From NCBI GenBank assembly GCA_031284485.1, contig JAISZT010000049.1:1-40996 (forward strand): a stretch of DNA of 40,996 nt, in the 5' to 3' direction. Within the stretch, counting starts at the first letter, position 1, and each line of letters begins with the position of its first letter. The stretch comes from Desulfovibrio sp. GTDB lineage: Bacteria > Desulfobacterota > Desulfovibrionia > Desulfovibrionales > Desulfovibrionaceae. The notes under the pieces were generated by a model, which did no database searches, was not told the origin of the DNA, and was given only the letters and a program-made list of their open reading frames with translations. The position numbers were made by a program, and so were the translations under genes. Shown here one piece after another: positions 11,059-32,969 of the stretch.

Positions 11059-11074
11059 TGCACATTCCATGCCG
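11059..11074 (-). promoter_or_regulatory. Probable sigma-54 promoter of the fliL operon
   Basis: On the minus strand CGGCATGGAATGTGCA carries GG and GC exactly ten bases apart, with GGCA and TGCA conserved against the -24/-12 consensus TGGCACG-N4-TTGC. The -12 element lies about 43 bases before the fliL start, nearly the same distance as in the flhB promoter. It sits in the only gap between yggS and fliL. It is weaker than the flhB site (C for T before GG, G for T in TTGC). Confidence 0.6.
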
Positions 11075-17472: not shown

Positions 17473-20400
17473 CTACTTTGCCATGGACATCATAAGTTTT
17501 ATCCTGTTGATCTGGTTGACCTCACTTGCGCCGGGGTCATAATCCAGAGCAATGATATTTGATTCGGGATAGCGCAGTTTAAGCTCTTTTAGCAGCCCTT
17601 TTCCGGTAATGTGGTTCGGCAGACATCCAAAAGGCTGCATGCAAAGAATATTGGAAACCCCGGATTCCAGCAATTTTACCATTTCGGCCACGAGCAGCCA
17701 TCCTTCGCCTGTCTGGTGCCCAAGGGAGATGAGGTTTTTTGTTTTCTTCCGAAGCTCGCTGAAACGTACCGGCGGCGTAAACCGTTTGCTGCGCCTGAAG
17801 CCCATACGCATCGCCCACCTTGTGAACTCCAGGGTAAATATGCCCATCAGACCTGAAAAATAGCCCCTCCAGGAGCCGGCCAGATGCTGGTAGTTGAATA
17901 TATGATCATAAAAACAATACAGCGCAAAATCCATGAGATCGGTGACAACGGCTTCGCCCCCTTCGCTTTCAACTATTTCCGCCGCTCTATTGTTGGCGTC
18001 CGGATGATATTTGAGCAGAATTTCACCGACAAGGCCAACGCGCGGTCTGCGCTCCTCCGTGCGCAAGGACAGGTTGTCAAAAGCCTTGATCATGGCCAGC
18101 ATGGTGAGATCAAAGCTGATTACATTTGCGGAAAAAATGCATTTTTTGGCCTTTTCCGCCCATTTTTCGGCAAGACGGGCAGCGCTTCCTTTTTCAGATT
18201 CATAAGGTGTAACTCTATGCAGCATGCGCATCAGAGCATCGCCGAACTGACCGGCCATAATGAAGCGCAACATCATTTTTCCGGACAGCCTGAAGCTGTT
18301 TTCCTTTGTCTGGATATTCGCCACAAAGGACAAAATGGGAATATCCTCCATATTGCAGTCTCGCAGGGCTTTGCGCAGAAAGGCGATATAGTTTGTGGCT
18401 CTGCATCCGCCGCCTGTCTGCGATATCATGATGGCGATCTTGCTGCGGTCGAAGCGTCCACTGTGGATTGCCTGCAAAAGTTGTCCGATGACGACAATAG
18501 CCGGAAAACAGGCATCGTTGTTTACATACCGCAAGCCCATTTCTATGGCCTCTCTGTCAACAGCCGGCAGTTGCACGGCCTTGTAGCCGTCCGCGGCAAA
18601 CACCGTCTCCAGAAATTGAAAGTGCACCGGTGACATTTGCGGAATCAGGATGGTGTGTGTTTCCCGCATCTGCCTGGTGAAAGGCGGTGGGGATCTGTAG
18701 TCGTCCGCGGGAAGGGAGTGGGCGCTTTTTCTTGTCTGGCGCTCGCGCATGGCCGCGAGCAGTGAGCGAATGCGTATTCTTGCCGGGCCAAGATTTGTCC
18801 CTTCGTCAATTTTGATCTGGGCGTACAGACGGCCTTTGCGTGTGACAATCTCTTCAAGCTGGTCAGCGGTGATGGCGTCAAGACCGCACCCGAAAGAGAC
18901 AAGCTGCAAGACCGCAAGATTTTCTGTCGCGGCGACAAAAGCGCCGGCGCGGTATAATCGGGAATGGTAGGTCCATTGATCCACAACCCGCAGCGGGCCG
19001 GGGTCAGGCATCAGGTGCGCCACGGCGTCTTCGGTCAGCACTGCCATGCCGCAGGATGTGATCAAATCCGCTATGCCATGATGCACTTCGGGGTCAACGT
19101 GGTACGGATGCCCGGCAACGACGATGCCGAAGTCGCCCGTCTTCTCAAGGGTGGCCAGAGCTTTTTCTCCGGTCAGCCGCATGTCTTCCCTGAAACGTTC
19201 AAGTTCAAGAAAACCGTCCTGAACGGCAGTTTCCATTTCAATGGCGGGAATATCGGCAAAAAAGGGAACGGCGCAGAGCCGTTTTGCCAGCGCCCCCTTG
19301 TCCAGCGGAAGAAAGGGATGAATGTATACTATGTTGTTTTTTCGCAGGGCGTTGATGTTTTTTGCCAATAATTCAGGATATCCGATCACTACCGGACAGT
19401 TGAAAGTGCCCGCCTGAGTGTCAAATTCCTGCCGTTCATTGGGCAGACAGGGATAAAAAATAGTGTCCACCCCGCGTTCAATGAGGTCAAGAATATGCCC
19501 GTGAGCGAGCTTGGCCGGATAACACACAGTTTGTGAAGGGATTGTTTCATACCCGCGGAAAAACAGATCCTTGGATGATTCAGACGACAGAATCACGCGG
19601 AATCCCAACGTGGTGAGCAGGGTAAACCACAGAGGATAGTTTTCATACACGTTCAGGGCGCGCGGTATGCCTATTGTTCCGCGTCTGGCCTGATCTTCCG
19701 TGATCGGCGTGTACGGGCCGAATATCCGCTTGTATTTGTACGCGTACAAATTGGGGAGTTTGTTGGTGTCCTGCCCGAATCCCCGCTCACAGCGATTGCC
19801 GGAAATATAGCGGCGCTTGTCCGGAAATGTGGCAATAGTCAACAGGCATGCGTTGCCGCAATGCTTGCAACGCGTTGCCGTTGTTTTCATGGTGAAATTT
19901 TCCAGTTCTGAAGGCCCGATGAGACTTGTCGCCCGGTCTTCAGGCCCGCGATCCCTGGCTATCAGCGCCGCGCCGAAAGCGCCCATAAGACCTGCCAGAG
20001 CCGGTCGTGTGACTTCGCGTCCCAGTTGCAATTCAAGCGCCCGCAGGAGGGCGTCATTGGCAAATGCCCCGCCCTGAGTCACTATGTGTTCGCCAAGTTC
20101 ACTTACGTGCGTTGTTTTTATGACCTTGAAGCAGGCGTTGCGCACCACAGCGTAGGAAAGGCCGGCGGCAATGTCCCCCACGTCAATGCCTTCCTTTTGC
20201 GCCTGTTTGACTTTTGAATTCATGAAAACGGTGCAGCGCGTGCCAAGATCCGCCGGGCGCCTTGATTTCAGCGCCGCGTCGACAAATTGCGTCAGGGGCA
20301 TTTGCAGCGAGTCCGCGAAGTTTTCGATAAATGAGCCGCATCCGGCGGAGCAGGCTTCGTTTAACTGGATACGGGTGATAGCGCCATCCTGAATACGCAT

Positions 20401-21684
20401 ACATTTTATGTCCTGCCCGCCTATATCCAGAATAAAGCTTACGTTCGGTTCAAAAAAGCGGGCAGCGGCATAATGGGCGACGGTTTCCACTTCATCAATA
20501 TCCGCCTTGATGCCCGCGCGCATCAGACCGCTGCCGTATCCTGTGGCGGCTACGGCATTGATGGTCAGTTCAGGGTTCTTTCGGGCATAAATATCCTTGA
20601 GTATTTTTATTGCGGCGTTGATCGGTTCGCCCTTGTTCGGACCATAGAAGGAATAGATGAGCCTCGCCTGCTCATCAATCATAACGGCCTTAATGGTAGT
20701 TGAGCCGCTGTCAAATCCAAGCCAGGCTTTTCCCGTGCACTCTTCAAGAGAGGCACGGACAATGGCGTCTTTTCCGTGACGGACGCGAAACGCCAGAAAG
20801 TCCTGTTCCGATTCAAACAGGGGCGGCAGCGTCTGTTCGCTGCTGCGCGGAGCGTCAGCGGATAATCGCGCCGCCAGATCCCGCAATGGTTTTGTCTCGG
20901 CCGGTCGGCTTTTCGCATACAGCGCCGCGCCTATGGCTACAAAATATTCCGCATTTTCCGGCAGAACGCATTCGGAAGCTTCTTTCAGTGTTGCTTTAAA
21001 ACGCTCACGCAGCGACTTCAAAAAAGTAAGCGGCCCGCCCAGAAAAACCACTTTCCCCTTGATGGCCCGCCCGCGCGCAAGGCCACTCACCGTCTGGTTG
21101 ACGACAGCCTGCATGATGGAGGCCGCTATGTCTTCACGGGAAGATCCTTCGTTGAGTAGTGGGAGGATGTCCGACTTGGCGAATACGCCGCACCGTGATG
21201 CAATGGGGTAAATTGTGTTGTACTGTCGGGCCATAGTGTCCAGTCCGGCAGGGTCTGTCTGCAGGAATGCGGCCATCTGGTCAATAAACGCGCCTGTGCC
21301 CCCCGCGCAGGTTTCATTCATGCGCTGGTCAAGTCCTCCGGTCAAAAATGTCAGTTTTGCGTCTTCACCGCCAAGATCGATAATTATATCCACATCAGGA
21401 ACACGTTCCCTGATGCTCATTCCGGAGGCGATCACTTCCTGTGTGAAGGGTAGACCAAATTCCAGCGAGAGAGAAATCGCGCCTGATCCGCTTGTGCACA
21501 AGCGCCATGCATGCATTGGAAAGGATTCAGCAATGTTGTGCAAAAGAAGGGCGATGCATTCCCGCACATCTGAAAAATGTCGTGTATATTTTTTAAAAAG
21601 TATATTCCCGTCCGTGTCAAGCGCAACGGCCTTGACAGTAGTTGATCCGACATCCAGTCCGATGCGTATTTCAGAGAACGTCAT
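17473..21684 (-). CDS. Giant acyl-CoA dehydratase activase-like ATPase (double BadF/BadG/BcrA ASKHA, DUF2229)
   Basis: A 1403-residue soluble protein. It begins with two ASKHA ATPase domains of the 2-hydroxyacyl-CoA dehydratase activator type: the first with GLDVGSTTVKAVA (about 9) and NETCAGGTGAFIDQ (about 119-132), the second with GFDSGSTTIKAVM (about 325) and NEACSAGCGSFIEN (about 445). In the family the Cys of each such loop binds a [4Fe-4S] cluster between two subunits. CKHCGNACLL near 605 opens the DUF2229 region, and the C-terminal part resembles dehydratase subunits. The substrate is unknown. It begins 32 bases after a flagellar-operon gene on the same strand, so it may be cotranscribed. 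Activators are normally about 260 residues, so this is a distinct large form. Confidence 0.85.
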   Translation of the reverse strand: MTFSEIRIGLDVGSTTVKAVALDTDGNILFKKYTRHFSDVRECIALLLHNIAESFPMHAWRLCTSGSGAISLSLEFGLPFTQEVIASGMSIRERVPDVDIIIDLGGEDAKLTFLTGGLDQRMNETCAGGTGAFIDQMAAFLQTDPAGLDTMARQYNTIYPIASRCGVFAKSDILPLLNEGSSREDIAASIMQAVVNQTVSGLARGRAIKGKVVFLGGPLTFLKSLRERFKATLKEASECVLPENAEYFVAIGAALYAKSRPAETKPLRDLAARLSADAPRSSEQTLPPLFESEQDFLAFRVRHGKDAIVRASLEECTGKAWLGFDSGSTTIKAVMIDEQARLIYSFYGPNKGEPINAAIKILKDIYARKNPELTINAVAATGYGSGLMRAGIKADIDEVETVAHYAAARFFEPNVSFILDIGGQDIKCMRIQDGAITRIQLNEACSAGCGSFIENFADSLQMPLTQFVDAALKSRRPADLGTRCTVFMNSKVKQAQKEGIDVGDIAAGLSYAVVRNACFKVIKTTHVSELGEHIVTQGGAFANDALLRALELQLGREVTRPALAGLMGAFGAALIARDRGPEDRATSLIGPSELENFTMKTTATRCKHCGNACLLTIATFPDKRRYISGNRCERGFGQDTNKLPNLYAYKYKRIFGPYTPITEDQARRGTIGIPRALNVYENYPLWFTLLTTLGFRVILSSESSKDLFFRGYETIPSQTVCYPAKLAHGHILDLIERGVDTIFYPCLPNERQEFDTQAGTFNCPVVIGYPELLAKNINALRKNNIVYIHPFLPLDKGALAKRLCAVPFFADIPAIEMETAVQDGFLELERFREDMRLTGEKALATLEKTGDFGIVVAGHPYHVDPEVHHGIADLITSCGMAVLTEDAVAHLMPDPGPLRVVDQWTYHSRLYRAGAFVAATENLAVLQLVSFGCGLDAITADQLEEIVTRKGRLYAQIKIDEGTNLGPARIRIRSLLAAMRERQTRKSAHSLPADDYRSPPPFTRQMRETHTILIPQMSPVHFQFLETVFAADGYKAVQLPAVDREAIEMGLRYVNNDACFPAIVVIGQLLQAIHSGRFDRSKIAIMISQTGGGCRATNYIAFLRKALRDCNMEDIPILSFVANIQTKENSFRLSGKMMLRFIMAGQFGDALMRMLHRVTPYESEKGSAARLAEKWAEKAKKCIFSANVISFDLTMLAMIKAFDNLSLRTEERRPRVGLVGEILLKYHPDANNRAAEIVESEGGEAVVTDLMDFALYCFYDHIFNYQHLAGSWRGYFSGLMGIFTLEFTRWAMRMGFRRSKRFTPPVRFSELRKKTKNLISLGHQTGEGWLLVAEMVKLLESGVSNILCMQPFGCLPNHITGKGLLKELKLRYPESNIIALDYDPGASEVNQINRIKLMMSMAK

Positions 21685-21716
21685 TGAACAAATCCAGTAT
21701 CTGTGATTGAACGGGG

Positions 21717-22136
21717 TTACTGCTGCGCCAAAATAAGCTCAACTTCATCAACACTTAAACCTGCATTTTGGGCGATCTGCCGACTGGACAAGCCTTTACG
21801 TTTACCGTTCAAAATGATTTCACGCAAAAACTGCGGTGAACGACGTATGCCTTCGGCCTGTTCCAGCAGTCGGCCCAGTTCGTGCGCGCGTTCTTCCAGT
21901 TTTTCATTGAGATTGCGTAGTTCAGCCTGCCGTTGAGCAAATGTCGCCACAATTTCGCGTTCAAGGTGCGCGTTCATTTCTATGCGTTTAAGAAGGCTTT
22001 CCTGGTTGCCCTGAAGAGAATTGAGCAGAGTTTCAGAACGGCGCAAGCGCAGATAAAAAAAGAGCAACCCGGCCAGAACGGCCAGTTCCAGCAGTGAAAA
22101 AACAATTATCAATATCAGGGAGAGCGTTTCGTTCAT
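21717..22136 (-). CDS. Membrane-anchored coiled-coil protein, DUF2802-like, in flagellar operon
   Basis: A 139-residue protein with one N-terminal membrane helix (about 6-30), a heptad-rich coiled coil (about 32-95) and a C-terminal helix-turn-helix-like segment (SPQFLREIILNGKRKGLSSRQIAQNAGLSVDEVELILAQ). This order matches small DUF2802 proteins found near fliL/fliA-type genes. The C-terminal part looks like a DNA-binding fold, but in a membrane protein it may serve protein contacts. The start overlaps the previous gene by four bases (ATGA). Function unknown; a flagellar accessory role is inferred from context only. Confidence 0.75.
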   Translation of the reverse strand: MNETLSLILIIVFSLLELAVLAGLLFFYLRLRRSETLLNSLQGNQESLLKRIEMNAHLEREIVATFAQRQAELRNLNEKLEERAHELGRLLEQAEGIRRSPQFLREIILNGKRKGLSSRQIAQNAGLSVDEVELILAQQ

Positions 22137-22462
22137 ATTCTGACGTTTAACAAATTACCTACCAATGGGGAAAGGGGGGGACGTACTTCTTCCTGTTCCC
22201 GATGCGTGTCCACAAATTGCAGCCTTTTTTTGCGACGGCTTCCAAAGCTCAGGTTTTGCCGGTTGCGACCGTCAGCGGAAACAGCGGGTTTGTCCGTTTT
22301 TTCTGATTTTTCAACTTTCTGCTGCTCCTGTCTGGCTATTTCTGTGGCAATGACGCGTGACAAGGCTGCGGCGGCCTGCGGCGCCGCAGCAGCCGCGTTG
22401 ACCATGGGCGCGGCGAGTCCGGTCTGGGCATAAAGTACAGCCATGGTAACGTCAACACTCAT
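22133..22462 (-). CDS. Hypothetical protein in flagellar operon
   Basis: A 109-residue protein I do not recognise. The first 45 residues are Ala-rich and could form a helix (QTGLAAPMVNAAAAAPQAAA); the rest is basic and hydrophilic (SFGSRRKKRLQFVD). There is no signal peptide or membrane helix. It starts 17 bases after fliL2 and overlaps the DUF2802-like gene by ATGA, so translation is probably coupled. Position alone suggests a link to flagella. Confidence 0.65.
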   Translation of the reverse strand: MSVDVTMAVLYAQTGLAAPMVNAAAAAPQAAAALSRVIATEIARQEQQKVEKSEKTDKPAVSADGRNRQNLSFGSRRKKRLQFVDTHREQEEVRPPLSPLVGNLLNVRI

Positions 22463-22479
22463 GCCATTTCCTTGTTCCT

Positions 22480-23151
22480 CTATTCGTTCAAATAACTTTC
22501 AAACAATACATCCTCAATTTGCGCCTGGGTCAGATATCCATTGAGTACTGTCACCAAATCCGCCTTGATGGACAGGGAATTTTGCGCCGACAACAGATAG
22601 TCAATGTTTTTACCACGCAGATAATAATACACGGCATCGCGCAGGGAAATCATTTTTCTGTCCAGTTCCCTCTCAGAATTGGGAGAATTGGATAATGTTG
22701 AAAATTTGCAGATAAGAAAACGGGATGTTTTTTTTTCGTCAGAAAAATGTATAAAAAACGGGGCAAATTCCTTTATATAATGTTGTTTCGGTATCACTGC
22801 GGGTTTTGTGGGAACAACTATCAGTTCCGGCTTGACCACTTCCGGCGGAGGGGGAGGGGTACGCAGAACAAACCACCAGACGGCGGCACCAATGCCAATC
22901 AGCGCCAGCAGAGCCGCGCCCGCCAGTATAAGACGTTTTTTCTTTTTAACAGGTGGTGGAGCAGCAGCGTCCGGGGCAGCCGTGTCTTTCTCGCCGTCAG
23001 ACGCCGCAGGTGGATCCGGGGTTTTTATTTCCTGTAGAAAAGGCGCATCTTCAAGGTCAAGCTCCACTTTGGCTTGCCCGGCTCCGGACGATTGCGCTAC
23101 CTGTATTTCAGGCGTTTCCGGGGGGGAGGCGAGTTTGGTTTCGTCGGGCAC
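22480..23151 (-). CDS. FliL-like flagellar basal-body protein (second copy)
   Basis: A 223-residue protein with an acidic Pro-rich cytoplasmic N-terminus (1-70), a KKKKR stop and membrane helix (about 74-97), and a periplasmic domain with the FliL pattern: FAPFFIHFSDEKKTSRFLIC, ERELDRKMISLRDAVYYYLRG and the ending IEDVLFESYLNE. It differs clearly from the FliL at 10364-11017, so it is an old paralogue rather than a recent duplicate. It lies 39 bases after cheY. Confidence 0.85.
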   Translation of the reverse strand: MPDETKLASPPETPEIQVAQSSGAGQAKVELDLEDAPFLQEIKTPDPPAASDGEKDTAAPDAAAPPPVKKKKRLILAGAALLALIGIGAAVWWFVLRTPPPPPEVVKPELIVVPTKPAVIPKQHYIKEFAPFFIHFSDEKKTSRFLICKFSTLSNSPNSERELDRKMISLRDAVYYYLRGKNIDYLLSAQNSLSIKADLVTVLNGYLTQAQIEDVLFESYLNE

Positions 23152-23190
23152 ATCTTACTCCACCCATTGTCTGCATCGTCATGGGCAGAT

Positions 23191-23571
23191 TCAGGGGAAT
23201 ATCTTGTCAATTTTTTGTTTCAAAGTATCCGCAGTGAAAGGTTTGACAATGTAATTGGAAACTTTGGCCTGCACTGCCTCTATAATATTTTCCTGCTGCG
23301 CTTCAGCTGTAACCATCAAAAAAGGCGTGTCGGCAAATTGTTCGCTCGCCCGTACTTTTCGCAACAGGTCTATGCCGGTCATCTGAGGCATATTCCAGTC
23401 TGAAACAATAAAATCAATTTTGTCACGGTTGAGCACTTCCCACGCTGTTGTGCCGTCGTCGGCTTCCACAACATTGTTAAAGCCGAGCTGGCGCAAAATG
23501 TTACGTACAATACGACGCATGGTGGAAAAGTCATCAACAATAAGGACACGCATATTCGGGTTATATGGCAT
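23191..23571 (-). CDS. cheY: Chemotaxis response regulator CheY
   Basis: A 126-residue single receiver domain. All key residues are present: acidic pair D13/D14, phospho-accepting D58 (VSDWNMP), T88 (MVTAEA), Y107 and K110 (NYIVKPF), the set that switches CheY binding to FliM. A shorter start at M7 (MRVLIVDD) is possible. It sits between fliA and fliL2 in the flagellar operon; cheA, cheB and cheR are not in this window. Confidence 0.95.
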   Translation of the reverse strand: MPYNPNMRVLIVDDFSTMRRIVRNILRQLGFNNVVEADDGTTAWEVLNRDKIDFIVSDWNMPQMTGIDLLRKVRASEQFADTPFLMVTAEAQQENIIEAVQAKVSNYIVKPFTADTLKQKIDKIFP

Positions 23572-23592
23572 GCGTATATCTCCCTGATTTAT

Positions 23593-24375
23593 TTATATTT
23601 CATCAATACGTCCATAGAGGCTGACAAACTCTTTTCTCAGACGACTCAATGCCTGGGAATGCAGTTGCGAAACACGCCCTTCAGTGATGCACATGATTTC
23701 AGCAGTTTCACGCATTGTCAATTCATCGGTATAATAGAGTGAGAGTACCAATTTTTCTCTGGGTGTCAATCTTTCGATAAGCGGAGCCACCCGCTCGATG
23801 AGTTCCTGCATGGCCGTGGCACTGTATGGTTCGCCGCCGCTTTCTGCGGCGTCGTTCGCCAGCGTGTCCTGTATGGCGTCAAGGGAAAGCCAGAGTTGAT
23901 TTTGCAATGCTTCAAGCCCCTGACGGATATCGCGCAATTCAAGACCGGTGATACCCTGAAGTTCTTCCTCGCTGGCCTGACGTCCATGCTCGTGTTCGAC
24001 TTTGCGCATTGCTTCGTCGAGTATGCGTAACCGTTGACGCAATGATCGCGGAAACCAGTCCAGCCTGCGCAACTCATCCAGCATGGCACCGCGAATACGA
24101 TTTTCCGCATACGTTTCAAAGCGGATGCCGAGTTGCGGACGAAATTTGCCGAGAGCCTCCATTAGCCCCAGCGTGCCCGAACTTATCATTTCGCCCAGTT
24201 CCACGCTACGCGGCAATTTTGCTTTAAGTCGCAAGGCCAGAAAACGAATTTTTGGCGCATAATGTCGCACTATGGCTTCCTGTTCCACAGGGGAAAAATT
24301 ATCCCAGGCGGTGGCACCGGTTTCAAGCGCTTCCCAGGGATGTTCACGCAATACCTGCGCTGTGGCGGTTTTCAT
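23593..24375 (-). CDS. fliA: Flagellar sigma factor sigma-28, FliA
   Basis: A 260-residue sigma factor for late flagellar genes. Region 2 is clear (GLMEALGKFRPQLGIRFETY, then RIRGAMLDELRRLDWFPRSL) and region 4 carries a helix-turn-helix (LTMRETAEIMCITEGRVSQLHSQALSRLR). AAAGGAAC precedes the ATG. The gene lies between flhG (108-base gap) and cheY (21-base gap). No anti-sigma gene flgM is seen nearby. Confidence 0.95.
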   Translation of the reverse strand: MKTATAQVLREHPWEALETGATAWDNFSPVEQEAIVRHYAPKIRFLALRLKAKLPRSVELGEMISSGTLGLMEALGKFRPQLGIRFETYAENRIRGAMLDELRRLDWFPRSLRQRLRILDEAMRKVEHEHGRQASEEELQGITGLELRDIRQGLEALQNQLWLSLDAIQDTLANDAAESGGEPYSATAMQELIERVAPLIERLTPREKLVLSLYYTDELTMRETAEIMCITEGRVSQLHSQALSRLRKEFVSLYGRIDEI

Positions 24376-24483
24376 GACATGTTCCTTTTTGGTTCGTGCC
24401 TCTTCTTCCTTATGACATGTGTATCATGCCGGTTGTTCCCGAAGCTCCTGGCCCGCCCGGCTGGGCAACGGGAATGATGTGTT

Positions 24484-25299
24484 TCAACTTTCGCGGAACA
24501 GCAGTTTTCTCCAGAAAAATTTTATATTGCCATCAAGATGCTCGGGAACCTCCCATTCGGTAATTGTCCGGGCAAGCTGTGATACGGCCTTCGCCGCTCC
24601 GCTGTCCGGAGTGCCGACACAGAACGGCAGTTGTTCGATAACGGCTTTGCGCACATCTGTGTCGCGCGGAATTATACCTGCAAGATCCAGTGAAATTCCG
24701 CTTAAAAAATGGTCACATGCATTGTGCAGGCGCGTAAATATGTCCTTGGCCTCTTTTTCGTTTGGCGTCATATTCACGCATACTTTGAAATGTTCCACGT
24801 TATGGGTTTGTTTGAGCACTTTGACCAGGGCATAGGCATCGGTAAGCGATGTCGGTTCCGGCGTGAGGATAAGCAGTCTCTCCTGCGCGGCCAGATTGAA
24901 ATAACGGACATTATCACCTATGCCCGCGCCGGTATCGGTAATCAGGTAGTCAAGGTCATCTTCCAGTTCACTTACAGATTCCAGCAATTCAAATTTTTGA
25001 CCTGTGGAAAGGGCAAGCATGTCACTTACCCCGGAAGACGCCGGAAGGATGGAAAACCCGTAGGGCGTCGGGAAAAGAATATCGTGCAGTGACGCCCCGT
25101 GCAGCAGATCAAAAAGGTTTTTCTTTGGCGTCAGCCCCAGCAGCACGTCAACATTGGCCAGCCCGAGGTCCGCATCAAGCAGCACAACCCGTTTGCCCAA
25201 TCTGGCAAGACTGATTGCCAGGTTGACGGAAATATTTGTTTTACCGACGCCGCCTTTGCCGGAAGTTATGGAAAACGCCAGGGGAAATGTACCGCTCAT
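24484..25299 (-). CDS. flhG: MinD-like ATPase FlhG (FleN/YlxH), flagellar number regulator
   Basis: A 271-residue ParA/MinD-type ATPase with deviant Walker A SGKGGVGKTN near residue 12, DADLGLANVDVLLG, and ITDTGAGIGDNVRYF as Walker B region. It works opposite FlhF to limit the number of flagella. In some polar flagellates it also damps the sigma-54 master activator FleQ; with a sigma-54 promoter driving this operon, feedback of that kind is possible but not shown. It starts 15 bases after flhF. Confidence 0.93.
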   Translation of the reverse strand: MSGTFPLAFSITSGKGGVGKTNISVNLAISLARLGKRVVLLDADLGLANVDVLLGLTPKKNLFDLLHGASLHDILFPTPYGFSILPASSGVSDMLALSTGQKFELLESVSELEDDLDYLITDTGAGIGDNVRYFNLAAQERLLILTPEPTSLTDAYALVKVLKQTHNVEHFKVCVNMTPNEKEAKDIFTRLHNACDHFLSGISLDLAGIIPRDTDVRKAVIEQLPFCVGTPDSGAAKAVSQLARTITEWEVPEHLDGNIKFFWRKLLFRES

Positions 25300-25314
25300 T
25301 TGTTTACTCCATGT

Positions 25315-26379
25315 TTATGAACTTGCGGGACCGGCTGCTGCCTGCCCGGGAAGCTGCCGCTTGAAGATCAAGCGCCAGATCAGTGGTTCCGTGGCCGGGA
25401 CAAGGCTTTCTTTGAGTTCCGCCCCGAAGGACAGCGCCGAAATTGGCAGCCCGGACGAACAGGCCACATTGACCAGAGCGCCAAAACTCACGGCTTCATC
25501 CAGCTTTGTCCAGACAACGCTTGCCCGTCCTTCACATTTGTATCGCCGCAAAAAAACTTGTGTCTGTAAAGGATCGCAATAGTGGGACAGCGTCAAATGC
25601 ACAGCAATATTTGTGTCGGCAAGATTCATTTCTTCCCGCCATTGGACAAGATTTTGATTTTGTGAAAATCCCGGTGTATCTATAAATACTGCGCGCGCGT
25701 TTGTGGATGCCGACAGAGCGTGTTCCATGGCTGCCTTGTCCGGTGCTTCAATATAGGCAAAGTTGGAAAGCTCCGCCCAGTGACGCAGGATAAGCCTGCC
25801 GTTGCCGCGCAGGCAGTCGGCGTTGATAAAAACAATGCGGGCTTCAGGTTCACTTTTTCGCAGGGCAAGCGCAAAACGAAGGGCTGTGGTGGTCTTGCCG
25901 GAACCAAAAGGTCCGGTGAACAGATGAACGCGTTCATCCCAGTTTGTCGTTCCCCATGCCTTGACCGGAACCATACTGTAAAGGCATTCCAGAACGGATA
26001 CGCCGGGCCGGGCCAGAAGGCGTCTATACAAATCCACGGCAACAGCGTCGGAAACGCCCTCACGTTGCAGATATTCCAGAGCAATGCGCTGACGCGGGGT
26101 AAGACGCTCCATCTGGATGGCGGGTTTCATCAGCGCAAAAAGCTGTTCTTTGATCTGCATCCATTCTTTGTGCCATTCTCCCCATGAATCCGTCATGCCG
26201 GAAGCGGTTCCGGCGGCCGCTGATGTATGCTGTTCAATACCGGCGGTGATTTCATGAAAAACAACGCCGTTTTTGCGGTAGGTACGGTTGCTGAGGATGA
26301 CGGCTTCCGGCCCCATTTCAGCCTTGACCTTCGCAAGTACATCCTGGGATGTGGTGCCTGTGAATGTTTTTACCTGCAT
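25315..26379 (-). CDS. flhF: SRP-type GTPase FlhF, flagellar placement
   Basis: A 354-residue SIMIBI GTPase that marks the flagellar pole. The N-terminal KTFTGTTSQDVLAKVKAEMGPEAVILSNR is characteristic. The GTPase core has G1 TGPFGSGKTTT near 175, a G3 element FIDTPGFSQ, and G4 VWTKLDEAVSFGAL. Length is in the lower normal range. It follows flhA by 81 bases and precedes flhG, the usual pair for polar flagellation. Confidence 0.93.
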   Translation of the reverse strand: MQVKTFTGTTSQDVLAKVKAEMGPEAVILSNRTYRKNGVVFHEITAGIEQHTSAAAGTASGMTDSWGEWHKEWMQIKEQLFALMKPAIQMERLTPRQRIALEYLQREGVSDAVAVDLYRRLLARPGVSVLECLYSMVPVKAWGTTNWDERVHLFTGPFGSGKTTTALRFALALRKSEPEARIVFINADCLRGNGRLILRHWAELSNFAYIEAPDKAAMEHALSASTNARAVFIDTPGFSQNQNLVQWREEMNLADTNIAVHLTLSHYCDPLQTQVFLRRYKCEGRASVVWTKLDEAVSFGALVNVACSSGLPISALSFGAELKESLVPATEPLIWRLIFKRQLPGQAAAGPASS

Positions 26380-26460
26380 GAGCCGATCCTTTGCCTTGTT
26401 TCAAATCGTGTCGTTTATCAGACCTGAAATATGCTATGCAAATTAAGGGCCAACAATCCC

Positions 26461-28560
26461 CTACTCCGCGTTTATGGTGCCGACAGCCTGCAAGCGGATG
26501 TCCGCCGGTATTTCCGCCTGGGAGATCACCGGAACCGTAGGCAGAAAGCGGGTAACCAACTGCGCAAGGTGCGGACGAATTATCGGGCTCGTCAATATGG
26601 CCGGTTGGCCGTCCGTATTCACCGCGTTTTCGATTGTTTTGCTTATGTCCTGTATAAGGCGTTGCGCGACAGCCGGATTAAGTGAAAGAAAGGATGCGCC
26701 GTTTTCTGTCTGACGAATACTCCCCTGGATCATATGTTCGACGCTGCCGCTCAATGTCAGAACAGGCAATGTGCCCTGACTGTCCAGATAGGGACGCACA
26801 ATAGAACGCGAGAGTTTTTCGCGCACGTATTCGGCAAGCACGTCCGGGTTTTTGACAGTTTGGGCAAAATCTCCCAGAGTTTCCACAATGGTCAGCATGT
26901 CACGTATGCTCACGTTTTCGCGAACCAGTATCTGCAGCACCTTTTGCGTCGCGCCAAGGGATATCGTCCCGGGCACGAGGTCCTCCACCGCCTTGGGAGA
27001 ATGTTTGGAAAGCGTGTCCAGAAGTCCCTGGACAGCCTGACGATCCAGAAAGTCCGGCAGATGACGCTTGAAGACCTCTGTCAAATGCGTGGCAATCACA
27101 GTGGCCGGGTCAACTACCGTATACCCGGCCATCATGGCTTCTTCGCGCCGGCTTTCCGGTATCCAGAGCGCCGGCAGGTTAAATGCCGGTTCATTGGTCG
27201 CTATGCCGGTAATCTGCGTTGTGACGTTGCCCGGATCCATGGCCAGAAAATGATCAACAAGAATTTCAGCCGAAGCCACCTGATTGCCCTTGATCAGCAG
27301 AGCATACTGACCGGGTTTTAACTGCAGGTTGTCGCGCAGGTGCAGCGAGGGGACGACAACGCCCATATCAAGCGCGAATTGCCGCCGGATGGAGCGGATG
27401 CGCGCCAGCAGGTTGCCACTTTGCTCTTCATCCACAAGGGGGATAAGGCCGTAGCCCAGTTCCAGTTCAAGTGTGTCCAGAGGCAGCAGGGCCTGCACTT
27501 CTTCGGGCGTATCCGCGGAGGGAGAGCTTTTTCCCTTGCCCTTGGCATTTTTGCCGCCATTCTGCTCCTCTTCGTCGCCCTTGCCCGTCAGGCGTGAGAC
27601 AATAAAAAACAGTACGCTGAGCACAAAAAACGGGACGGTCGGCAATCCGGGCACTATGGCGAACACCAGCAATATGCCGGAAACCATTTTGAGCGCCTTG
27701 GTGTTAAGGGTGAGTTGGGCAAGAAATTCTTCACCCATCTTTGCTTCCGCGGCCGCGCGGGAAACAAGCAGGCCGGTGCCTGTGGAAACGATGATTGAAG
27801 GAATGGTGGAAACCAGACCGTCGCCTATGGTCAGCAGTGAATATGTAGTGAGGGCGGCGTTCCAGTCCATGTCTTTCTGCACAACGCCGATAATGATGCC
27901 GCCGATAAGGTTGACCATGGTTATCAGCATGCCGGCGTTCACATCGCCTGAAACGAATTTGCACGCGCCGTCCATGGCGCCGTAGAAGTCCGCTTCCCTG
28001 CGCAGGGCATGGCGGCGGGAGGTGGCCTCATCCTCGTCAATAAGGCCCGCGTTCAAATCAGCCTCAATGGCCATCTGCTTGCCGGGCATGGCGTCCAGGG
28101 TAAATCTGGCGGCCACTTCGGCGATGCGCGTTGTGCCTGCGGTGATGACGGTTTTGTTCAGGATGAAAAGGATCATAAAGATAACGCCGCCGACAACGTA
28201 GCTGCCGCCGACAACAAATTCTCCGAAAGCGCGTATGACGTTGCCCGCCGCTTCAACGCCCGTATCTCCGTTAAGCAGGATCAATCGGGTTGAGGCCACG
28301 TTCAGCGCCAGCCTGAGCAGTGTCGTCACGAGCAGCAGAGAGGGGAAAATGCTGAATTCCAATGGAGACGTCATAAACATCGTGGTGATAAGCACAAGCA
28401 GGGAAATGGAAATGCTCACGCAGAGCATGATGTCCAGAAAGAACGTGGGCAGAGGCACAAGCATGACAAAAAGAATAATCACGACGCCTGTGGCGAGCAT
28501 GATGTCCCCGTGCCTGGAGAAGCGACTGTAGTCCATTTGTGGTAAGCCGGTTGTTGCCAT
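26461..28560 (-). CDS. flhA: Flagellar export protein FlhA
   Basis: A 699-residue export gate protein. Eight membrane helices occupy about residues 17-320, with the conserved stretch RIAEVAARFTLDAMPGKQMAIEADLNAG (here given by its parts) in the FHIPEP region. A charged linker with low complexity (about 330-350) leads to the cytosolic domain forming the nonameric ring that receives chaperone-substrate complexes (LELGYGLIPLVDE, LWIPESRREEAMMAGY, HLTEVFKRHLPDFL). Length is normal. It starts 42 bases after flhB. Confidence 0.96.
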   Translation of the reverse strand: MATTGLPQMDYSRFSRHGDIMLATGVVIILFVMLVPLPTFFLDIMLCVSISISLLVLITTMFMTSPLEFSIFPSLLLVTTLLRLALNVASTRLILLNGDTGVEAAGNVIRAFGEFVVGGSYVVGGVIFMILFILNKTVITAGTTRIAEVAARFTLDAMPGKQMAIEADLNAGLIDEDEATSRRHALRREADFYGAMDGACKFVSGDVNAGMLITMVNLIGGIIIGVVQKDMDWNAALTTYSLLTIGDGLVSTIPSIIVSTGTGLLVSRAAAEAKMGEEFLAQLTLNTKALKMVSGILLVFAIVPGLPTVPFFVLSVLFFIVSRLTGKGDEEEQNGGKNAKGKGKSSPSADTPEEVQALLPLDTLELELGYGLIPLVDEEQSGNLLARIRSIRRQFALDMGVVVPSLHLRDNLQLKPGQYALLIKGNQVASAEILVDHFLAMDPGNVTTQITGIATNEPAFNLPALWIPESRREEAMMAGYTVVDPATVIATHLTEVFKRHLPDFLDRQAVQGLLDTLSKHSPKAVEDLVPGTISLGATQKVLQILVRENVSIRDMLTIVETLGDFAQTVKNPDVLAEYVREKLSRSIVRPYLDSQGTLPVLTLSGSVEHMIQGSIRQTENGASFLSLNPAVAQRLIQDISKTIENAVNTDGQPAILTSPIIRPHLAQLVTRFLPTVPVISQAEIPADIRLQAVGTINAE

Positions 28561-28602
28561 TTTTCTGACACCTCACAATATATCGGATATGAACGGCTCG
28601 TG

Positions 28603-29676
28603 TTACATCATTTTAGGCTTGAGTTTCCAGATGCTTGCAAGTACAGCGGCCACGGCCTTGTAAAGTTCTTCAGGGATCATTTCACCTATGTCGACAGCTT
28701 TATACAAAGCGCGTGCCAGAAGCACGTTTTCACGAATGGGCACCTTGTGTTCCCTTGCCACGGCCTTGATTTTTTCGGCCAGGTGATCCGCGCCCTTGGC
28801 AATCACAACAGGCGCGGGGGCTTCAGAAGTGTTGTAGCGCAAGGCCACGGCGATATGCGTGGGATTGGTTATGACCACATCCGCCTTGGGGATGTCCTGC
28901 ATCATGCGTTTCGTGATAACTTCCATCATTTTTTTGCGCTGTTGCGCCTTTACGGTCGGATCGCCTTCCGCGTTTTTTCTTTCGTCCTTCACTTCTTCCT
29001 TGGTCATCTTCATATTTTCATTGTAGGCGTATCGTGATTGCCAGACGTCAAAAACGGTGATGACCACTATCGGCAACAGGGCGTAGGAAGCCAGATGCAG
29101 CCCCATTTGCAGCATGTAAACGGCCACGCCTTCTGACGTGGCGTAATACATAGGCAAAAAATTTTCGTATTGCTTATAGATCAGATAGCCGGGAATAGCC
29201 GCGAGAATGACGGCAAACAGAAGACTTTTGAAAGTACGCAACAATGTTTGCGGCGAGGCCAATATCTGTTTCAGACCTTTGAAAATGTTGAAGCGCTGCC
29301 ATTTGAATTTGAATACCTTTGTAGTCCAGAGTTTGCCCACTTGCAGCCTTTGGGCAAGAAAGGACAAAAAAGCGAGAAACAGCAGGATGGGCATAAGGAT
29401 TTTACAAAGATTCAGCGATAGATCAATGCTCAAGGCATAAACATTTTGCGCGTTGGGTTCAAATTCCCAGGCATGCGTCAAAAAACGGCGGAAGATTGAC
29501 TTTATCTCCTCAGACATGGGGCCGATCCATACATAGAGCGCAATCAGCCCGCCAATCAGGCTGATAGCCTTGCCAAGTTCCTGTGATTTTGGAACATTTC
29601 CTTCATTACGTTGCTTTTCACGGCGCTTTGGTGTAGCGTTTTCCGTTCTGCTTGGGTCTTGTTGTTTGCCGAGCAT
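28603..29676 (-). CDS. flhB: Flagellar export switch protein FlhB
   Basis: A 357-residue export protein with four membrane helices (about 35-215) and a cytosolic switch domain. The autocleavage motif NPTH lies at bases 28855-28866 within [15 protein letters not shown], so the substrate-specificity switch from rod/hook to filament should be intact. The N-terminal [21 protein letters not shown] is typical. It is the first gene of the operon, with GGGAAAG before the ATG and a sigma-54 promoter upstream. Confidence 0.96.
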
Positions 29677-29718
29677 GCGTCTTTCCCGCTGTTGCGATTT
29701 TGGCGTTCATACGGGGGA

Positions 29719-29737
29719 TAGCAATAAACGTGCCCAT
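29719..29737 (-). promoter_or_regulatory. Sigma-54 promoter of the flhB operon
   Basis: On the minus strand ATGGGCACGTTTATTGCTA contains GGCACG-N4-TTGC, with GG and GC exactly ten bases apart, a match to the -24/-12 consensus at nearly every position. The -12 element is about 45 bases before the flhB start, giving a leader of roughly 33 bases. It drives the run from flhB towards the activase-like gene. Confidence 0.85.
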
Positions 29738-29812
29738 GCTGTCTGGAGAACTGGATTTTTTCCAGAATCTGATGTAGTTTGGCAATCGAAACCACAACAT
29801 GCAGGAAGATAT

Positions 29813-31066
29813 ATGGACAAACTGATCATTGAGGGCGGCGTGCCGCTCACGGGCGTTGTTGAAGTCAGCGGATCAAAAAACGCGGCTCTGCCCATACTAT
29901 TCGCCTCCATTCTTCTAACAGAGCCTGTGGTTTTCCACAATGTGCCTGATCTGCGCGATATTCGCACCACGATTGCCCTGTTGCTGCTGCTTGGCTGCGA
30001 CTGCGGCTATGAAAACCGCAAAGCGCGTGTTGTCGCGCCAGGTGTTCTGCACCCCGAGGCCCCCTATGATCTGGTGCGCACCATGCGGGCGTCGGTGCTT
30101 TGCCTTGGGCCTTTGCTCGCGCGTATCGGACAGGCCCGCGTGGCCCTGCCCGGCGGCTGTTCCATAGGCGCGCGTCCTGTGGATCAGCACCTCAAAGGCT
30201 TTGAGCAGATGGGCGCGCATTTTGACCTTGAAGAAGGCTATATTATCGGGCGCTGCCGCAAACTCAGGGGCGCGCATATCAGCTTTGACCTTCCCACCGT
30301 CGGCGGCACGGAAAACCTGCTCATGGCGGCTGTGCTGGCGGAGGGGGAAACCATTCTGGAAAACGCGGCACGTGAGCCGGAAGTTGTTGATTTGGCAAAT
30401 TTTTTATTGTCCTGCGGAGCGCGCATTGAAGGGCACGGCACAAGCTGCATCCACATAACCGGAGTGAGCAGCCTGCACGGCACGGAATACACCGTCATGC
30501 CCGACCGCATTGAAGCCGCCACATTCCTGGTGGCGGCCGGTATTACAGGCGGTGAACTGCTGGCGCGCAGTTGCCCTTTTGCGGAGTTGGAAACCGTTAT
30601 CCTCAAATTGCGGGACATGGGCATGGAAATCACCGCCACCGCAGACGGCGTACTGGCAAAATGCGCCCGCCCCCTGCGCGGAGTAGACATCACCACCCAG
30701 CCCTATCCGGGATTTCCCACAGATGTGCAGGCGCAGATTATGGCCATTATGTGTCTTGCCGAGGGCGCAAGCATCGTGCAGGAAAGCATATTTGAAAACC
30801 GCTTTATGCATGTGCTGGAACTGATGCGCATGGGTGCGCAGATAAAAATTACCGGGCGCACGGCCTTGGTGCGCGGGGTAAAACGTCTTGCCGGCGCGCC
30901 GGTTATGGCCTCTGATCTCAGGGCCAGCGCTTCACTTGTGCTGGCCGGTCTGGCCGCGCGCGGCACAACAGAGGTACGCCGCATTTATCATCTTGACCGT
31001 GGCTACGAACGTATAGAAAACAAATTGAACGCTGTGGGCGCACGCATACGGCGTGAAAAAGAATAA
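29813..31066 (+). CDS. murA: UDP-N-acetylglucosamine 1-carboxyvinyltransferase MurA
   Basis: A 417-residue enzyme that transfers enolpyruvate from PEP to UDP-GlcNAc, the first committed step of peptidoglycan synthesis. The start MDKLIIEGG with [16 protein letters not shown] is typical, and the catalytic Cys is at residue 116 in [16 protein letters not shown]. Later motifs include [25 protein letters not shown] and [18 protein letters not shown] at 29813 follows AGGAAG; the frame is open much further upstream but encodes nothing MurA-like. It is divergent from flhB. Confidence 0.96.
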
Positions 31067-31087
31067 CTACTCCACAGGAGGCATATC

Positions 31088-31636
31088 ATGCGTCAATCGG
31101 CACTGTTGCTGTTATTTTTGACTCTGATCCTGCAAGGATGCGCCGCAACGTATGGCGTCTATGACGACCAGAGGCTCTCCGACACCATAGCCGACGACAA
31201 GGTTCTGGCTTCCAAAATCAAGGCCGACATAGCCAAGGAAAAACTCAGCACCGGCTGGGCTGTCGCCGTCTATTCCTATTACGGTAATGTGTATCTGGTG
31301 GGAGAAGTACCGCAGGACATGCACAACAAGGTGCTGACCATCGCCCGCCGCCACAAGCCGCGATCTGTCACCCCGCACTGGTTCAACCCGGCGACGGCCG
31401 ACACCGGCGATGTGGTTCTGGCCACCAAACTGCGCGCCGAACTGATAGGCACAAAGGGGCTTTCTTCCACCCGCATAGACACGGAAGTGAATTCCGGTCG
31501 CGTGGTTCTGCTGGGCGTGGTAAAGGACGATGCGGAAAAACGCCTCGCCATCCGCGCTGCCAAAGAGGTCAAGGGGGTAAAATCTGTGACCAGCTATCTG
31601 ATATTGCCCCAACGCGGCGGAGCTGTTCCGGAATGA
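31088..31636 (+). CDS. BON-domain lipoprotein
   Basis: A 182-residue predicted lipoprotein with a hydrophobic signal ending LILQGC (lipid Cys at 18). Two BON domains follow: about 36-100 (KVLASKIKADIA... YYGNVYLVGEV) and about 110-175 (VVLATKLRAELIG... NSGRVVLLGVVKD). In OsmY and DolP such tandem domains bind phospholipid and support envelope integrity. AGGAGG precedes the ATG. It lies 21 bases after murA and 29 bases before rubredoxin; cotranscription with murA is likely. Confidence 0.85.
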   Translation: MRQSALLLLFLTLILQGCAATYGVYDDQRLSDTIADDKVLASKIKADIAKEKLSTGWAVAVYSYYGNVYLVGEVPQDMHNKVLTIARRHKPRSVTPHWFNPATADTGDVVLATKLRAELIGTKGLSSTRIDTEVNSGRVVLLGVVKDDAEKRLAIRAAKEVKGVKSVTSYLILPQRGGAVPE

Positions 31637-31665
31637 ATTTTTTACAGTAAAAAAGGGGATCCGGT

Positions 31666-31845
31666 ATGAGTGAACCAAAAGATATGTGGCGTTGCCCGGT
31701 AACGAACTGCGGCTATATGTACGACCCGGATCGCGGCGACCGCAAGGGCAAGATACCCAAGGGCGTAAAATTCGAAGACCTGCCCGACGACTGGCGTTGC
31801 CCTGTGTGCGGGGCGAGCAAAAAAGGCTTTACCTGCATGGGCTGA
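31666..31845 (+). CDS. Rubredoxin with C-X4-C first motif
   Basis: A 59-residue iron-sulfur protein with one Fe(Cys)4 site, an electron carrier typical of anaerobes. The second motif is normal ([10 protein letters not shown]). The first reads [13 protein letters not shown], with four residues between the cysteines instead of two. I recall this spacing from the type 2 rubredoxin of Desulfovibrio desulfuricans. The remainder ([25 protein letters not shown]) fits the family. AAAAAGGGGATC lies upstream of the ATG. It is the last gene before the convergent mqnC, with 17 bases between the stops. Confidence 0.93.
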
Positions 31846-31862
31846 CGCGCCCGCAACACGCT

Positions 31863-32969
31863 TCATGCTCGTGAAATCGGCTTGTAGTCCATTGTACGCT
31901 GCACAGGCTCAAACCCGGCGGCGCTGATGATCCTGCATATTTCATCGCGGCTCAGCGTGTACGCCACCCCGGCGGCGGCAACGACATTTTCCTCAATCAT
32001 CAGTGAGCCGAAATCGTTTGCGCCGTAAAAAAGCGCCAACTGCGCCGTCTGAGGCCCCATAGTCACCCAGGATGCCTGAATATTCGGCACGTTGTCCAGC
32101 ACCAGGCGGGACAGAGCCAAAAGGCGCAGATAGGCGGGCGCAGGCAAAGGCGCACGCTGAATGCGCGTGTGCGTCGGCTGAAACGTCCAGGGGATAAAGG
32201 CGGTAAAACCGTGGGTGCGATCCTGCGTCTCACGCACAGCAAAAAGATGATCCAGCCGGTGCCGGGGTTCTTCCTCATGGCCAAACATCATGGTGGCCGT
32301 GGTGCGCAAGCCCAGGGCGTGCGCCTCTTCCATAACGGCGAGCCATTGGCCAGCGGAACACTTGTTGGGCGAAACACGCGCCCGCACGTCATTATGCAGC
32401 ACTTCCGCTCCGCCGCCGGGCAGAGAATGAAGCCCGGCTTCCTTGAGTCGACGCAGCACCTCGGCCGTGGGCAGAGCGAATTTTTGCGACCAGAAAGAAA
32501 TCTCCGGTGGGGAAAAAGCGTGGATATGCAGCGAGGGCCACGTTTCACGCAGCCAGCGCAGCAAATCCTCATACCATTCCAGGGGCAGATCAGGATGGTG
32601 ACCACCCTGCAACAAAATCTGCGTACCGCCAAGGCGCAGTGTCTCCTTGATTTTTTCGGCCATTTCCTCACGGCTGATCACATAGCCGTCCTCGCTTCCC
32701 GGCGGACGAAAAAATGCGCAGAAACGGCAGCCGCACACACAGATGTTTGAATAATTGATATTGCGGTCACCCACATAGGTCACAACCGGTTCGGGATGCA
32801 AACGCAGGCGTACGGCGTGGGCCAGCGCGGACAGAGTGTGCAGGGACGCCCCGTAATACAGGGCATCGGCGGCGGCGCGGTCAAGACGCTCTCCCCGCGC
32901 GGCAAGTACCGCTGCTTCTGAAACTCCGGCACTTTCTTCAAGCGGGCTGTGGGCCGGGGCAAATATCAT
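31863..32969 (-). CDS. mqnC: Cyclic dehypoxanthinyl futalosine synthase MqnC
   Basis: A 368-residue radical SAM enzyme of the futalosine route to menaquinone. The [4Fe-4S] motif CX3CX2C is in SNICVCGCRFCAFF. GGTQILLQGGHHPDLPLEWYEDLL and GLHSLPGGGAEVL are typical of MqnC; the former separates it from MqnE. The start overlaps mqnE by four bases, so the two are cotranscribed and translationally coupled. The product of MqnC is converted to 1,4-dihydroxy-6-naphthoate by MqnD, encoded divergently. Confidence 0.9.
   Translation of the reverse strand: MIFAPAHSPLEESAGVSEAAVLAARGERLDRAAADALYYGASLHTLSALAHAVRLRLHPEPVVTYVGDRNINYSNICVCGCRFCAFFRPPGSEDGYVISREEMAEKIKETLRLGGTQILLQGGHHPDLPLEWYEDLLRWLRETWPSLHIHAFSPPEISFWSQKFALPTAEVLRRLKEAGLHSLPGGGAEVLHNDVRARVSPNKCSAGQWLAVMEEAHALGLRTTATMMFGHEEEPRHRLDHLFAVRETQDRTHGFTAFIPWTFQPTHTRIQRAPLPAPAYLRLLALSRLVLDNVPNIQASWVTMGPQTAQLALFYGANDFGSLMIEENVVAAAGVAYTLSRDEICRIISAAGFEPVQRTMDYKPISRA

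Follow-up and report, generated by a model that had tools for sequence, protein, structure and literature searches.

The stretch of Desulfovibrio DNA analysed here, 40,996 nucleotides long and hereafter called the window, carries two sigma-54-type −24/−12 elements, one a short distance before flhB (PflhB) and one in the gap between flhA and flhF (PflhF). Both are conserved within the genus, and it is highly likely that they are the sigma-54 promoters heading the flagellar cascade of this organism, whose genome also encodes rpoN and a FleQ-like sigma-54 activator.

Seven genes follow one another on the minus strand, in the order flhB (28603–29676, PF01312), flhA (26461–28560, PF00771), flhF (25315–26379, PF00448, with TIGR03499 below its cut-off), flhG (24484–25299), fliA, encoding sigma-28 (23593–24375, TIGR02479 FliA_WhiG above cut-off), a gene for a CheY-like response regulator (23191–23571, PF00072) and, further along the cluster, a gene for a FliL-domain protein (22480–23151, PF03748). 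By ORF coordinates, the gaps between them are 42, 81, 15, 108, 21 and 39 nt. The candidate name flhG, for a MinD-like ATPase and counterpart of FleN (PF10609/PF01656, with the MinD models below cut-off), is given on gene position. The divergent neighbour of flhB, murA (29813–31066, plus strand, PF00275), lies outside the flagellar unit. The closest named FlhB found, in a comparison from which own-genome records were possibly left out, is that of Desulfovibrio sp. ZJ369 (82%), and a plasmid search listed no more than distant matches to FlhA and MurA. A 1403-aa ORF at 17473–21684, in the same orientation as the flagellar genes, contains two acyl-CoA dehydratase activase stretches.

PflhB, read directly on the minus strand at 29735–29720, is GGGCACGTTTATTGCT, that is, GGGCACG-TTTA-TTGCT, which keeps the GG-N10-GC spacing, has 1 mismatch to TGGCACG-N4-TTGC and scores 11/12 consensus positions. 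An earlier note on this DNA had placed a near-perfect sigma-54 element with exactly this spacing close before flhB, and the element is confirmed; the distance to the flhB ATG (29676), given there as 45 bases, measures 43 bases from the 16-mer. Pattern counting alone says little: at up to 1 mismatch, the whole genome (2.54 Mb) has 84 matches (1 exact) versus 54 for a reversed control pattern, and a scan of the window at up to 2 mismatches gives 15 matches versus 21.7 expected, which is chance level. A same-strand site scoring at least 11/12 is found in 0.16% of 120-nt stretches of own-genome DNA. It is position together with conservation that makes PflhB significant. Conservation was read from all 56 flhB matches of a same-genus search (55 of 79 genomes), with up to 550 nt upstream of each, a positive being a site with both GG and GC and at least 8/12 scored positions. 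The element precedes 41 of the 56 flhB genes, with the 16-mer beginning 38–85 nt before the ATG, a count whose members are not independent because the relatives share descent. Two spacer positions that played no part in the requirement or the score are T in 40/41 and 41/41 positive rows; the other consensus bases besides GG and GC counted in the score of these rows. Aligned on the 16-mer, the 41 rows have upstream columns of at most 0.52 bit, mostly below 0.2, and downstream columns of at most 0.68. The strict element is missing from 15 of the 56 upstreams. One of these (L126) is truncated where its contig ends, two (L131 and L145) hold the near-copies TTGCACGATTCTTGCA and GCGCACGATTTTTGCA, which have no GG, and the other 12, from more diverged members of the genus, are truly without it. 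Taken together, PflhB is very probably a real sigma-54 promoter.

The element goes with flhB independently of murA and fliR, since these neighbours are rare or missing in the 56 same-genus loci: within the 550 nt or less that were read, murA lies upstream of flhB in one locus, that of the source genome, and fliR in none. In other genera, fliR immediately precedes flhB in the same orientation in 22/22 loci examined, which are the best-scoring of 133 other-genus genomes with an flhB match. A fair GG-N10-GC site, scoring 10/13, is present at −60 in one of these loci (L088), and the remainder score 9 or less. Set beside the same-genus loci, these 22 (L087–L108) place a split of the fliR–flhB operon near the base of the genus. 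As fliR adjoins flhB in other genera but not in this one, flhB seemingly gained its own promoter after the split; we infer that once flhB had left fliR it needed such a promoter, which it then either gained or kept.

PflhF (TGGCCCTTAATTTGCA, minus strand, 26452–26437) lies inside the 81-nt flhA–flhF gap, with 57 nt between it and the flhF ATG, and scores 10/12. Sites resembling TGGCCCYNATTTTGCA occupy the same place in relatives, at 29 of 30 flhF loci (the source genome's own included) and in 3 of 7 further genomes, giving 32 of the 37 distinct genomes examined, out of 56 with an flhF match. One genome among the positives (L188/L238) is atypical, with its site within the end of flhA, and PflhF was not found in five of the 37 (L232, L205, L206, L210 and L211). 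Many of the FlhF matches, for example L215–L237, are listed as having one in-frame stop, possibly for no other reason than that the query extends a few residues beyond their ends.

The surroundings of PflhF bear on the control of fliA. Within the 4.6 kb that follow flhA, flhF is present in 26 of 36 relatives, at gaps of 33–3357 nt, and absent in 10, and in L194–L196 a terminator-like stem stands between flhA and PflhF; these gaps and the intervening stem indicate that flhBA is separate from flhF-flhG-fliA in part of the genus. Neither the flhA–flhF gap nor the flhG–fliA gap of the window has a called terminator, so PflhB and PflhF may both feed fliA, which, as far as sequence alone tells, is downstream of both. 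Given that PflhF is the nearer of the two and that flhA and flhF lie apart in some relatives, the flhB promoter would be at most part of fliA control. The lasting sigma-54 promoter of fliA is probably PflhF, kept also in genomes that have flhA and flhF at a distance from each other. The proposal of the earlier note that fliA is itself under sigma-54 control holds up, but the route through the flhB promoter of the same operon would be at most a part of it, as PflhF lies nearer and is found in 32/37 genomes.

Elsewhere in the genome, a site of at least 9/12 lies within 120 nt of 9 of 12 flagellar starts, namely flhB, flhF, fliL, fliM, flgB, flgE, flgF, flgI and flgN, against a background of 2.9% of 120-nt stretches. 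The 12 starts were not picked blindly, flhB being given and flhF and flgI having been noticed through the site scan; among the 8 unit heads reachable by family searches alone (flgF, flgN, flgE, the rod gene in L172, flgB, fliC, fliL and fliM), 6 have a site. The one before the fliL-fliN-fliO-fliP cluster, CGGCATGGAATGTGCA (minus strand, 11059–11074), is weaker, at 9/12, with 41 nt between it and the first gene's ATG. No site of at least 9/12 was found within 120 nt of fliA itself, of the rod-like gene in L172 or of fliC. Upstream of fliC, which encodes flagellin, is a sigma-28-type element, GCCGATAA. The gene in L172 (6481–6915) encodes a short rod/hook-family protein (Flg_bb_rod, Flg_bbr_C) and stands apart; its upstream region is AT-rich and has no GG-N10-GC site. 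The predicted arrangement is a sigma-54/sigma-28 cascade, with fliA after sigma-54 promoters and flagellin behind a sigma-28 site. A scan for the same element before other flagellar units had been put forward as a check, and its outcome, together with rpoN and a FleQ-like activator, supports the suggested hierarchy of FleQ/FlrA type.

The genome has one Sigma54_DBD match, rpoN, and 20 PF00158 matches for sigma-54 activators, 18 of them strong. The activator L033 (354 aa, G000:C29:10463-11524) contains GAFTHA, an AAA+ domain (PF00158) and, at its C-terminal end, a Fis-type HTH (HTH_8); its best PDB match in phmmer is FleQ (5exx, query residues 7–350, E 1.2e-94). The N-terminal, receiver-like FleQ domain PF06490 is not among its matches, and its sigma-54 domain starts at residue 8, so we name it FleQ-like and do not file it as FleQ: the regulator is of the kind that the earlier note had expected, except for the missing N-terminal domain. 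The HTH end is nearly identical in the source genome and 8 relatives. A perfect YGTCAGTGTATTGACA is present upstream of 25 of the 30 same-genus L033-type loci that were read (out of 63 matched genomes), at −42 to −143, whereas 26 of 900 shuffles contain a perfect YGTC-N8-GACR; before the source genome's own L033 gene the conserved repeat was not found. With thresholds of E 1e-60 for flhB and E 1e-120 for the activator, and with some genomes incomplete, 47 of the 55 genomes that have flhB also yield an L033-type protein (not found in 8), as do 16 of 24 without an flhB match. Its presence in the latter indicates that the protein is probably not flagella-only and has other tasks too. We lean slightly towards L033 as the activator of PflhF. 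A further activator, L036 (G000:C87 near 100014), has a receiver domain that scores under the Pfam cut-off and is a candidate FlbD/DVU1063-type flagellar regulator.

Past PflhF, an inverted repeat of the form YGTC-N8-GACR is found with at most 1 mismatch in 25/29 rows, compared with 5/29 equal-length upstream stretches and 95/1450 shuffles, and it begins 9–16 nt after the 16-mer in 26/29 rows. The copy in the source genome, GGTCTGATAAACGACA (minus strand, 26424–26409), is FleQ-box-like, has 1 mismatch and sits on the predicted PflhF start. FleQ is able to work from sites that lie downstream. For FlrC, activator sites beyond the transcription start are described (PMC6504787). Half-sites and spacing of the PflhF repeat are those of the DVU2894 motif of D. 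vulgaris, yGTCA-N6-TGACr (PMC4641369), and of the FleQ box, given as GTCAAT/ATTGAC repeats two bases apart (PMC10723142); in P. fluorescens F113 the FleQ consensus is called unreliable (PMC6120874).

The repeat past PflhB is weaker, with 13/41 rows at up to 1 mismatch, versus 0/41 upstream stretches and 116/2050 shuffles, and its distance from the promoter varies. In the source genome it has 2 mismatches (CGCCAAAATCGCAACA, minus strand, 29690–29705) and is a weak, tentative candidate for an activator site in the flhB leader; alternatively, the repeat may be part of the flhB leader itself or of the ribosome-binding region. At the fliL, flgF, flgN and flgE sites of the source genome, the best match to the repeat has 2–3 mismatches, and at flgI 1; the repeat therefore does not mark the flagellar promoters of this genome in general.

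Further motifs were set aside. A CGCCAA-N9-GGCGG motif in the flhB leader was demoted, as it follows the ATG better than the promoter, and perfect repeats in the flhA–flhF gap of L194–L196 went uncounted as activator sites, being terminator-like stems with T runs. A DVU2894-type motif upstream of the −24 element of PflhB, found within one mismatch in 8/56 loci versus 34/1120 shuffles, was also rejected; seven of these lie at a single position in rows that closely resemble one another, so the matches may be one inherited site, and the motif is not present there in the source genome. Four of the loci in which PflhF was not found (L205, L206, L210 and L211) have a perfect YGTCA-N6-TGACR 289–336 nt before flhF, with no T run. 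Across the source genome, the exact YGTCA-N6-TGACR occurs at 16 places versus 9 for a reversed control. At 3 of the 15 places checked, a sigma-54-like site lies within 300 nt, and it is strong only on contig C4 (L169:742-824, G000:C4), where the site TGGCAAGCACCTTGCA scores 11/12 and a perfect FleQ-box repeat, TGTCAATTCACTGACA, lies 51 nt upstream. The ORF that follows is small (~140 aa, starting MFFLLGGNEKK), and site and ORF are possibly a counterpart of a D. vulgaris DVU2894 target.

PflhB could be a sigma-54 promoter served by an FlbD-like activator of the DVU1063 class, which would put flhB in a later class than flhF–fliA. This is possible, and we regard it as rather doubtful. The division is known from V. 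cholerae, in which flhB is class III (FlrC) and flhA, flhF, flhG and fliA are class II (PMC6504787); few activator sites are reported 40–70 bp downstream of promoters in D. vulgaris, and most of these are DVU1063's (PMC4641369). L036, for its part, is present as a candidate with a receiver domain, albeit below cut-off. The DVU1063-type motif GGCA-N4-TGCC, at 0–1 mismatch, is in mild excess before flhB (16/56 upstreams versus 189/1120 shuffles) and before flhF (7/27 versus 80/540, at mostly scattered positions), an excess that we left unused; the 16 matches before flhB stand at scattered positions too, and none falls in the source genome's 350 nt before flhB.

Whether the repeat in the PflhB leader is instead an RNA or ribosome-binding element of flhB, and no DNA activator site, is a close call that we place marginally below even. 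Its distance to the ATG (−26 to −29) is often steadier than its distance to the promoter, and a like leader sequence is present in L145, which has no strict promoter element; yet the same half-sites and spacing recur past PflhF, 9–16 nt after the 16-mer in 26/29 rows, and an Rfam search of 21000–32000 gave no match at gathering threshold. That PflhB is a chance look-alike, with a sigma-70 promoter or some other source of transcription serving flhB, is very improbable: the 84 genome-wide matches, set beside 54 for the control, leave room for coincidence, but a site of score 11 is rare, the element is kept in 41/56 loci despite diverged flanks, and no sigma-70-like site was called in the flhB–murA gap.

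With PflhB and PflhF read as RpoN-dependent promoters, the PflhB transcript would start near 29709, some 12 nt beyond the GC, and PflhB would drive flhB-flhA, with possible read-through into flhF-flhG-fliA. PflhF would drive flhF-flhG-fliA, and perhaps cheY, its most likely activator being the short FleQ/FlrA-like L033 bound to the FleQ-box-like repeat at the start site. Sigma-28 would thus be made in the sigma-54 flagellar gene class and would then transcribe flagellin, and FlhG, encoded in the same flhF-flhG-fliA unit, would be the likely brake by feedback. A broader scenario is conceivable, at somewhat less than even chances: in Desulfovibrio, flhB would have been cut from the fliR–flhB arrangement that related genera have, received its own sigma-54 promoter and joined flhA, flhF, flhG and fliA, with a receiver-less FleQ relative acting at the PflhF start box. 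If true, the timing of the export gate would have been rewired in an event that can be dated, and FlhG would be the sole obvious brake.

The system is of a known kind, and the gain is in detail: a concrete promoter map extends the well-studied flagellar cascade to this group of Desulfovibrio, a likely master activator is named for flhF-flhG-fliA, and flhB is a clean natural example of a gene that changes operon and gains its own promoter. Among the paper titles listed for Desulfovibrio with these flagellar and sigma-54 genes, a part of the full lists, none deals with PflhB or PflhF in this genus; we make no claim that the two are unpublished. The flhB and flhA genes of D. vulgaris presumably lie at DVU323x. 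The term DVU323 has no occurrence in the main text of PMC4641369, and counterparts of PflhB and PflhF may already stand in the operon list of its Additional file 5. In D. vulgaris Hildenborough, sigma-54 is reported to control 19 flagellar operons, and there are two flagellar activators, DVU2894 and DVU1063 (PMC4641369, PMC3333781). DVU2894 is described as FlrA/FleQ-like, with GAFTHA and no N-terminal domain, and its listed targets are DVU0047-0043, DVU0410-0409 and itself (PMC4641369). L033 is like it in having GAFTHA and no N-terminal domain and in the yGTCA-N6-TGACr upstream of its relatives, a likeness drawn from the published description. In a 2025 survey of sigma-54 regulons, FlhB is among the enriched families in other groups (PMC12316311).

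As in the four-tier FlrA/FlrC hierarchy of V. cholerae, fliA, flhF, flhG and flhA would belong to an FlrA/sigma-54 class, whereas flhB, which ends the class III operon fliKLMNOPQR-flhB there, is here detached from fliR (PMC6504787). A like layout is known from P. putida, where PflhA and PflhF have both been measured to depend on sigma-N and FleQ and fliA lies at the end (PMC6424431). In both organisms two sigma-54-type promoters stand before an export-gate gene and before flhF, fliA is downstream of both and a MinD-like FleN/FlhG is encoded within the unit. They differ in that the promoters described here are known from sequence and their FleQ-like candidate has no N-terminal domain, and also in layout: in this Desulfovibrio flhB heads the cluster and PflhF lies in the flhA–flhF gap, whereas in P. 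putida PflhF lies inside flhA.
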